Shown one piece after another: positions 60,774-63,067 of a DNA stretch of 64,000 bases. Source of the stretch: Microbulbifer hydrolyticus (GTDB lineage Bacteria > Pseudomonadota > Gammaproteobacteria > Pseudomonadales > Cellvibrionaceae); contig NZ_CP047491.1 in assembly GCF_009931115.1 (NCBI RefSeq), forward strand, positions 3,750,001-3,814,000, written 5' to 3'. The notes under the pieces are model-generated. The model was not told where the DNA came from. It made no database searches and was given only the letters and a program-made list of their open reading frames with translations. Positions within the stretch are counted from its first letter, which is position 1, and every line of letters starts with the position of its first letter. The position numbers and the translations under genes are program-made.

Positions 60774-61337
60774 TCAGGCATCCAGCAACAGGTTGATTCG
60801 ACCCACGAGCTCGTTGCGATCGCAACTGGCGGCAACTACGGCATCGGCTCCGGCATCCAGCCAGTGTTGCTGATTGCTGTCACCATTCGGTGCGATTACC
60901 AGCACGCTCAATGAAGAGAATTCACTGCGGCAACGAATCATATCCAGCACCTGAAATCCGTTAACGCCATCCAGGTTCGTATCCAGAACCAGCATTGCGG
61001 GTTTGCTGGTTGCCAGCAGGGCGCCAGCGGTGAAACTGTCACCAGCGATCTCCACTTCTACACCCGCTTGCTGCAGCAACTGACGGCTTGCGGCCAGCTC
61101 CGGAGAGTCAGCCACCAGCAACACCTTGCGCGTCGCGCTACCCAGCTCAGCAGGTACCGGCATGGCGTTGTCACGCAGGAAGCCAACAAAGTCTTCCACG
61201 CAGATACGGTGGTCGCCGCGACCCGGCAGTTTGTAAGCTTTCAACTGGCCGCGCTCAATCCAGCGGATTACGGTACGGAAATTCACTCCACAGTACCGGG
61301 CAGCTTCCCCGGTAGTGAGTACATGCACTTCACTCAT
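60774..61337 (-). CDS. Helix-turn-helix protein with degenerate receiver domain
   Basis: N-terminal MerR/excisionase-type helix-turn-helix (about residues 5-55: TTGEAARYCGVNFRTVIRWI, GRGDHRICVEDFVGFL). C-terminal receiver-like domain (about 68-187): VLLVADSPELAASR has only one acidic residue where receivers have two, AMLVLDTNLDG keeps the phosphoacceptor Asp, and the usual KPF lysine is not found near AASCDRNELV. The order HTH-receiver is the reverse of common response regulators. I use the ATG at 61337 (GGGGGAT upstream); a GTG at 61355 is possible. Convergent with spoVR. Regulon unknown. Confidence 0.85.
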   Translation of the reverse strand: MSEVHVLTTGEAARYCGVNFRTVIRWIERGQLKAYKLPGRGDHRICVEDFVGFLRDNAMPVPAELGSATRKVLLVADSPELAASRQLLQQAGVEVEIAGDSFTAGALLATSKPAMLVLDTNLDGVNGFQVLDMIRCRSEFSSLSVLVIAPNGDSNQQHWLDAGADAVVAASCDRNELVGRINLLLDA

Positions 61338-61477
61338 TTTATTACTATCCCCCACGAATCGCGCATTTAATTATTAATTATGCTGAATTAAACCAAATAA
61401 GCAGGCGTTAATTCTATGCCTATATAGGTTTAACGAACCAACGGGGACATCCCTCAATAAAAGTTTGATAGTTATGG

Positions 61478-61505
61478 TTGACAGTTAAGGCAGGTAAAAT
61501 AGAAT
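61478..61505 (+). promoter_or_regulatory. Near-consensus sigma-70 promoter of the candidate sRNA
   Basis: TTGACA (61478-61483), 16 bp spacer, TAGAAT (61500-61505). The best promoter match in the window; start expected near 61512. Confidence 0.7.
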
Positions 61506-61511
61506 AGGCAG

Positions 61512-61689
61512 CATGTTCGCCTAGTTTATTAAAACATCGGCAACAAACGCTATCTCCCCTTAATTTGTAGCCTTTTGTAACAACCTACAGAAGCATCGGG
61601 GAACCTTGCGATTACGAGCTTGTTGGGATTCTCTCTTCACGAATACCCTAAGACCCTGGGCCCCCTTGTATTTTCGGGGCCTTTTTTTT
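61512..61689 (+). ncRNA. Candidate small RNA, about 178 nt, between the HTH gene and cca
   Basis: A strong promoter and a strong intrinsic terminator bracket sequence without a plausible open frame. Structure seen: TGTAG-cctTTGtaaCAAc-CTACA hairpin (about 61566-61590), GGGATTC...GAATACCC hairpin (about 61625-61648) and the terminator. It contains CA-rich single-stranded words (GCAACAAACG, GTAACAACC) that could bind Hfq. It does not look like 6S RNA, tmRNA, Spot 42 or RsmY/Z to me. Target unknown. Confidence 0.6.
61658..61689 (+). terminator. Intrinsic terminator of the candidate sRNA
   Basis: GGCCCC stem with GGGGCC, 11 nt loop, then eight T. Lies 146 nt before cca, so it separates the sRNA unit from cca. 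Confidence 0.92.
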
Positions 61690-61834
61690 ATCTTCCAGCC
61701 TCCTCAATTTCCTACTATTTACCTGACCAAACGCCGCTTTTGGCGAAGTCGTGCTCAGGTTCAGCAGCATTTATGGCCACTTCCGCCCTCTTATTTCTCG
61801 CCGCCGCGACCAGATTCAGTCGGGGAGCCGGACA

Positions 61835-63067
61835 GTGAAGTGCTATCTGGTTGGCGGCGCGGTACGCGACCTGCTGCTGCAACGCCCAATACACGAACGC
61901 GACTGGGTGGTGGTCGGCGCCACGGAATCCGACATGCTCGCGCAGGGCTTTCGCCCGGTAGGCAAGGATTTCCCTGTCTTCCTGCACCCGGATAGTGGCG
62001 AGGAGTACGCCCTCGCCCGCACAGAGCGAAAAAGCGGCCACGGCTATGGTGGTTTCACCGTCTACGCCAGCCCCGAAGTCACCCTCGAGCAGGACCTGCA
62101 GCGCCGAGACCTCACCGTCAACGCCATGGCACAGACCCAAGACGGCCAGATCGTCGACCCTTATGGCGGCCGTGCAGACCTGGAAGCCCGCAAATTGCGC
62201 CACGTATCCCCGGCATTCAGCGAAGACCCATTGCGCATATTGCGCGTAGCACGCTTCGCCGCACGCTACGCGCCGCTCGGCTTTACCGTCGCCGATGAAA
62301 CCATGACGCTGATGCGAGGTATGGTGGATGCAGGAGAGGTCGAACACCTGGTGCCCGAACGCGTGTGGAAGGAGGTAAGCAGGGCACTGACCGAGCCCCG
62401 GCCCGATGTTTTCATCCACGTGCTAAGGGATTGCGGTGCGCTGAAGGTCCTGCTGCCGGAAGTTGATTGCCTGTTTGGTGTCCCGCAGCCAGCACTCCAC
62501 CACCCGGAAATCGATACCGGTGACCATATCCTGCGCGCCCTGCGCGAGGCCCCGGCAGACCTGCCAGTGCGATTTGCGGTACTGGTGCACGACCTCGGCA
62601 AGGGCATCACTCCGGACAGTGTACTGCCCAGTCACCGGGGCCATGAGGGCGCCGGGCTTCCACTGGTAAAAGACGTGTGCAAGCGCCTGCGGGTGCCCAA
62701 CCCCATCACTGCATTGTCCCTCGGGGTATGTGAATACCACCTGCACTGCCACAAAGCCTTCGAGCTGCGCCCGCAGACCCTCCTCAAGATGCTGCGCGCC
62801 CTCGACGCCCTGCGGCGCCCCGAGCGCTTTGCACAGTTCCTGGCGAGCTGCGAGGCGGATGCGCGCGGCCGCAAAGGACTGGAGGACCGCGACTATCCAC
62901 AGGCGGACTACCTTCGCGCAGCCCGTGAAGCGGCGGCCAATGTGGACCCACAGGCGCTGATCGCGCAGGGATATGAAGGCGCCGAGCTGGGCAAGGCCCT
63001 GGACCGGGCGCGCCTGAAAGTCGTCGCCGACCTCAAAAAATCTTATAGCGCACCGGGCCAGCAATAG
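61835..63067 (+). CDS. cca: CCA-adding tRNA nucleotidyltransferase
   Basis: Adds or repairs the 3' CCA of tRNAs. Class II enzyme: [20 protein letters not shown] with ERDWVVVG (catalytic carboxylates), [11 protein letters not shown] (RRD), [15 protein letters not shown], and a C-terminal HD phosphohydrolase domain ([10 protein letters not shown]). I chose the GTG at 61835 with GGGGAG upstream, giving 410 residues as in E. coli (412); the in-frame ATG at 61751 adds 28 non-conserved residues. Follows the sRNA terminator. Confidence 0.96.

Follow-up and report, generated by a model that had tools for sequence, protein, structure and literature searches.

Divergently encoded pairs of a transcriptional regulator and a small RNA (sRNA) include SgrR-SgrS, OxyR-OxyS, and GcvA-GcvB, and multicopy sibling or tandem sRNAs include Qrr1-5, LhrC, and PrrF. 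We analyzed a unit at positions 61478 to 61689 of the window (the whole stretch of Microbulbifer hydrolyticus DNA that was analyzed, 64,000 nucleotides long) that resembles the divergent pairs in two respects: its predicted sRNA and the neighboring gene for a DNA-binding regulator would be transcribed away from each other, and the promoter of the sRNA carries operator-like repeats. It differs from them in that the Microbulbifer regulator combines an HTH_17 (excisionase/MerR-like) domain with a receiver domain and is not of the LysR or SgrR type. The RNA sequence is also unrelated, and we infer regulation within the Microbulbifer pair from sequence. The kind of system, an sRNA with a divergent regulator, is already known; the family itself is uncatalogued.

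We compared the window with Rfam 15, and nothing in it reached a gathering score, which ruled out a known RNA family as the identity of the unit and bore out the earlier note's impression that this is not one of the common RNAs. The sole subthreshold sRNA match was to suhB/mmgR (RF00519; 16.3 bits versus a cutoff of 41; E value of 0.82). In both RNAs, a C-rich linker precedes a GGCC terminator with U8, but the seed of suhB/mmgR is not that of the Microbulbifer unit. The literature searched contained no work pairing Microbulbifer with an sRNA or small RNA, and CCCUAAGACC was not found there. The sRNA family is new to Rfam and, within the literature searched, to the literature. The parts of the locus are as follows.

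61478 to 61505, plus strand: promoter TTGACA-16-TAGAAT, assigned by consensus match and conservation in the genus
61512 to 61689, plus strand: predicted sRNA of ~178 nt, its presumed 5' end placed ~7 nt past the -10 box
61514 to 61610, plus strand: 5' region of variable length, predicted to form two hairpins
61641 to 61657, plus strand: presumed seed GAATACCCTAAGACCCT (family form GAACACCCTAAGACCYTT), the linker preceding the terminator
61658 to 61689, plus strand: intrinsic terminator GGGCCCC-cuuguauuuuc-GGGGCCU followed by T8, with compensatory changes in other genera
61690 to 61694, plus strand: ATCTT, immediately 3' of the T tract
60774 to 61355, minus strand: divergent HTH-REC regulator gene, encoding an HTH_17 DNA-binding domain and a receiver domain
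61751 to 63067, plus strand: cca (CCA-adding enzyme), longest frame, outside the unit and a close neighbor in Microbulbifer

The unit has the sequence features of an independent sRNA gene, namely, its own promoter, its own intrinsic terminator, and no open reading frame, each of which the earlier note had described and our analysis confirmed. The -35 box (TTGACA, 61478 to 61483) and the -10 box (TAGAAT, 61500 to 61505) are separated by a 16-nt spacer and score 11/12 against the sigma-70 consensus, compared with 9/12 for each of the other promoter-like sites within 4 kb. The spacer carries the repeat GACAGTTAAGGCAG, which in the genus consensus is the direct repeat GACAGgTAaGACAGgT and which is a probable operator overlapping the -35 element, judging by its sequence. 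The terminator arms lie at 61658 to 61664 (GGGCCCC) and 61676 to 61682 (GGGGCCU), with the T8 tract at 61682 to 61689. There is no ATG-started frame of at least 25 amino acids inside the unit (61478 to 61689), and the plus-strand frames that touch it have TTG starts and continue out past the terminator. We infer that the unit is transcribed. The predicted RNA has an ordinary folding energy (z score of -1.3), with part of its seed predicted to pair with a stretch upstream of the seed, and the unit is present in a single copy in its own genome. The neighbors were also as the earlier note had proposed: the divergent gene product has domain matches to HTH_17 and Response_reg, and cca was identified downstream, a link that holds next door in Microbulbifer only. 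The true start of cca is probably a GTG at ~61838, since the first residue of the longest frame covered by the NCBIfam match is residue 30.

We searched 58 genomes at the DNA level. Of 37 from Microbulbifer, including the unit's own, 36 contain the unit, the exception being a genome with 80% completeness; no match was obtained in the 21 genomes outside Microbulbifer. The unit stood in the same place in each case, with the HTH-REC gene, the unit, and cca syntenic in all 36 loci, the unit pointing away from the first and toward the last. The core pattern ACCCTAAGACCNTGGGCCCC occurred in 25 stretches among ~85,000 species genomes, all 25 from Microbulbifer. An alignment of the 36 units resolved three zones: a conserved promoter (consensus TTGACAG.TA.GaCAGGT, then TAgAAT), a highly variable 5' part, and a 55-nt 3' module that is nearly invariant in the genus (CGAATACCCTAAGACCCTGGGCCCCCTTGTWTTTTCGGGGCCTTTTTTTTATCTT). 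This is a conserved gene unit, and because promoter, 3' module, and synteny are kept in 36 genomes, the arrangement is not due to chance. The 5' part ranges from almost nothing to ~120 nt (predicted RNAs of 78 to 199 nt across the genus), and because it is nearly absent in some species, it appears dispensable for the core function. Within the window's subclade, the 5' part is predicted to form two hairpins with some two-sided changes; those that keep a pair affect 9 of 41 consensus pairs, all within 61514 to 61610. The ATCTT that follows the T tract is the same in 36/36 Microbulbifer units and recurs unchanged in one other genus (L105), a conservation that an RNA ending in the T tract leaves unexplained.

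With a covariance model of the 3' module, we obtained a single weak match in another genus; it adjoined an HTH-REC ortholog, and we then collected the upstream regions of HTH-REC orthologs. In other genera, 22 of the 23 close orthologs (identity of about 50% or higher) had promoter, seed, and terminator upstream in divergent orientation, whereas none of 13 more distant homologs had the unit upstream. The layout in these genera is a TTGACAGGT-type promoter (pattern TTGACAGGTtaG.cA in 21 units), a variable stretch, (GA)ACCCTAAGACCYTT, and the terminator. We built a second model, R2, from the modules of other genera and applied it to 120 family genomes. Of the 47 that encode a close HTH-REC ortholog, 46 gave a strong match (E value of <1e-8), compared with 0 of the 73 that do not; the matches in ortholog-bearing genomes are partly by construction, but the absence from the other 73 is not. 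The divergent HTH-REC/sRNA arrangement is stable over evolution, and the coupling of the two genes is strict. In samples of the order (390 genomes) and the class (369 genomes), R2 had no strong match outside the family. Spread beyond the family was rejected, since only weak model matches were seen, largely driven by the terminator. These results refine the earlier note's description of an orphan ~178-nt sRNA: an uncatalogued sRNA gene of that length is the best reading of the unit, with strong comparative support, but it is not an orphan, since it travels with the HTH-REC gene across the family. The sole close ortholog without the sRNA module, in G423 (L280:1973-4999), has a receiver-protein gene standing there instead, with cca behind it; because cca follows this replaced locus, its vicinity to the locus may predate Microbulbifer.

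Additional seed copies occur in another genus, g149, and in one genome, G428, a likeness to the Qrr1-5, LhrC, and PrrF siblings. In genus g149, extra copies lie at other loci (L267 to L272) with wholly different GC-rich terminators, several of them between genes that were judged by eye to be azoreductase-like and modA-like. The G428 genome has a tandem array of seven seed-terminator modules (L113:253-767), the first six terminators with T6 and the last with T8. The G428 repeat differs from those siblings in that it consists of seed plus terminator with a 77-bp period and without a visible promoter per copy. The spacers between the G428 copies could form a small hairpin.

The seed linker is more conserved than the structured parts of the RNA. 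ACCCTAAGAC is invariant in 24/24 aligned modules from several genera, and the core of the linker GAACACCCUAAGACCCUU does not change while the terminator stem after it varies with compensation. In the same 24 modules, 94.9% of stem cells are paired, and the stem has a covariation score of 0.268, compared with 0.141 (standard deviation of 0.027) in shuffles, of which 0/500 reached 0.268. Twenty-eight modules of other genera had 16 different stem sequences versus 3 forms of the 11-nt seed stretch; these modules were located by their 8-nt core, which makes the core invariant by construction, but its presence at 22 of 23 loci is not. A fixed seed beside a helix conserved in structure only is the signature of a base-pairing seed followed by a terminator. 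The terminator loop often includes (A/U)GUA (for instance, GATGTA, GCTGTA, and GCAGTA; L107, L109, L113, L115, L117, and L121) and, in Microbulbifer, UUGUA; it is possible that this loop is an extra contact site.

We searched for targets in 1.26 Mb, about 30% of the genome. Complementarity of the seed to start regions showed no bulk excess over shuffled seeds in this 1.26 Mb. A general anti-Shine-Dalgarno effect was rejected, since shuffled seeds bind the start windows slightly better than the actual seed does. The 11-nt complement GGGTCTTAGGG occurs within the genus almost solely in the sRNA gene itself, and a search for 13-nt complements allowing G-U pairs and one mismatch gave 22 places, versus 38 for the reversed control, with no clear ribosome-binding site; this near absence of GGGTCTTAGGG elsewhere and the count below the control ruled out a long antisense target. 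One candidate emerged, GGGTCTCAGGGAG, which lies over the Shine-Dalgarno sequence of a glycine-zipper protein gene (G000:C1:2759603-2760187) and could form ten pairs with one mismatch. Its motif, GGGTCT-N-AGGG, is recognizable in 15 of 17 genomes of the window's subclade (subclade 1), where the leader upstream of it is highly variable, and G015, one of the two genomes in which it is missing, also carries a deletion within the sRNA seed. Across 41 genomes, the only gene other than the sRNA gene at which the motif recurs before an ATG is the glycine-zipper gene. However, a second Microbulbifer subclade has a different ribosome-binding site at this gene and lacks the motif, though its seed is identical. 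The glycine-zipper ribosome-binding site is thus a post hoc candidate target, chosen by its sequence from 1141 crude start windows and nearly always keeping one mismatch.

Because there was no bulk excess and perfect complements are rare, either the seed pairs over short or imperfect stretches or the linker serves a different function, for example, protein binding. The linker could be a protein-binding site through which the RNA sequesters a protein as a decoy, in the manner of CsrB or RsmZ, with tandem modules adding sites. This would account for a seed that is strongly conserved though start regions lack complements to it, and the seven tandem copies in G428 and the dispersed copies in g149 would fit titration. 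Microbulbifer, however, has one seed copy per RNA, the motif lacks the GGA loops of CsrA sites, and its position directly before the terminator is that of base-pairing sRNAs with an internal seed; we therefore consider a decoy unlikely. It is very improbable that the unit is no more than another element's terminator or 3' end, or conserved regulatory DNA of the divergent gene. Conservation of ATCTT beyond the T tract, where an RNA end does not explain it, would suit such an element, but the gene upstream runs in the opposite direction, the conserved promoter is directed into the unit, operator and module lie anywhere between about 70 and more than 300 nt apart, and copies of the module at other loci have different terminators. 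A conditional leader of cca, with the terminator and upstream hairpins as an attenuator, was rejected as the least credible reading, since cca does lie downstream on the same strand in 36/36 Microbulbifer genomes but the unit is kept in other genera with no cca in the collected ~1-kb stretches, some species have almost no 5' leader, which leaves no alternative structure, there is no conserved antiterminator, and every Microbulbifer species has a stable stem and T7 to T8.

We conclude that the unit is probably the gene for a trans-acting base-pairing sRNA, switched by the divergent HTH-REC protein and with its seed before the terminator, a reading drawn from comparative sequence evidence. The regulator's HTH domain is almost identical across orthologs of different genera, and within the 155 nt surrounding the promoter of the sRNA, TGACA/TGTCA boxes are ~5 to 9 times above expectation. 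The constancy of the pair, the conserved HTH domain, and the conserved repeats make it likely that the HTH-REC protein controls this promoter. It would bind the TGAC-type repeats overlapping the -35 box of the sRNA gene, and similar boxes before its own gene, and this binding would turn the sRNA on or off. Most other genera have a canonical receiver, with EDQPE, LDLKMPG, and LPKPF motifs, but that of Microbulbifer (about 60780 to 61125) lacks several phosphorylation-signature residues that the orthologs keep. By its sequence, the Microbulbifer receiver appears to be decaying to a pseudoreceiver, and control by phosphorylation is doubtful there because these residues are lost.

The 3' end of the RNA would be formed by the intrinsic terminator with its long U tract, and the 5' region would be a dispensable, fast-evolving scaffold. 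The ~17-nt linker GAA(C/U)ACCCUAAGACCCU would act as a seed, pairing with target mRNAs and blocking their translation. This pairing would probably take place at ribosome-binding sites and probably involve Hfq. Hfq-binding sRNAs, such as SgrS and RyhB, follow a terminator rule of seven or more T residues (PMC5558911). The intrinsic terminator of the unit in the window is alike in this (T8), but modules in other genera have T5 to T9, several orthologs only T5 to T6, and Hfq binding of the unit is a prediction. Two sequence features of Hfq dependence, an hfq gene in the genome (101.9 bits) and the long T tract, are both present.

More tentatively, the locus may belong to a family-wide circuit of an HTH_17-receiver protein and a dedicated sRNA, although on balance we hold this broader reading to be doubtful. 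Its ~17-nt seed and terminator would form a module that could be shortened to an RNA of ~78 nt, copied with new terminators, or arranged in tandem to give read-through RNAs of one to seven seeds, and Microbulbifer would have shifted from phosphorylation-controlled to level-controlled operation because its receiver lost signature residues. With this finding, the bacterial family that contains the marine bacterium Microbulbifer gains a conserved sRNA family, in which an uncatalogued sRNA and its likely controller can be tested together. With an invariant seed, a fixed partner, and natural variants (short forms, sibling copies, and a sevenfold array), control, seed function, and dosage are all testable.
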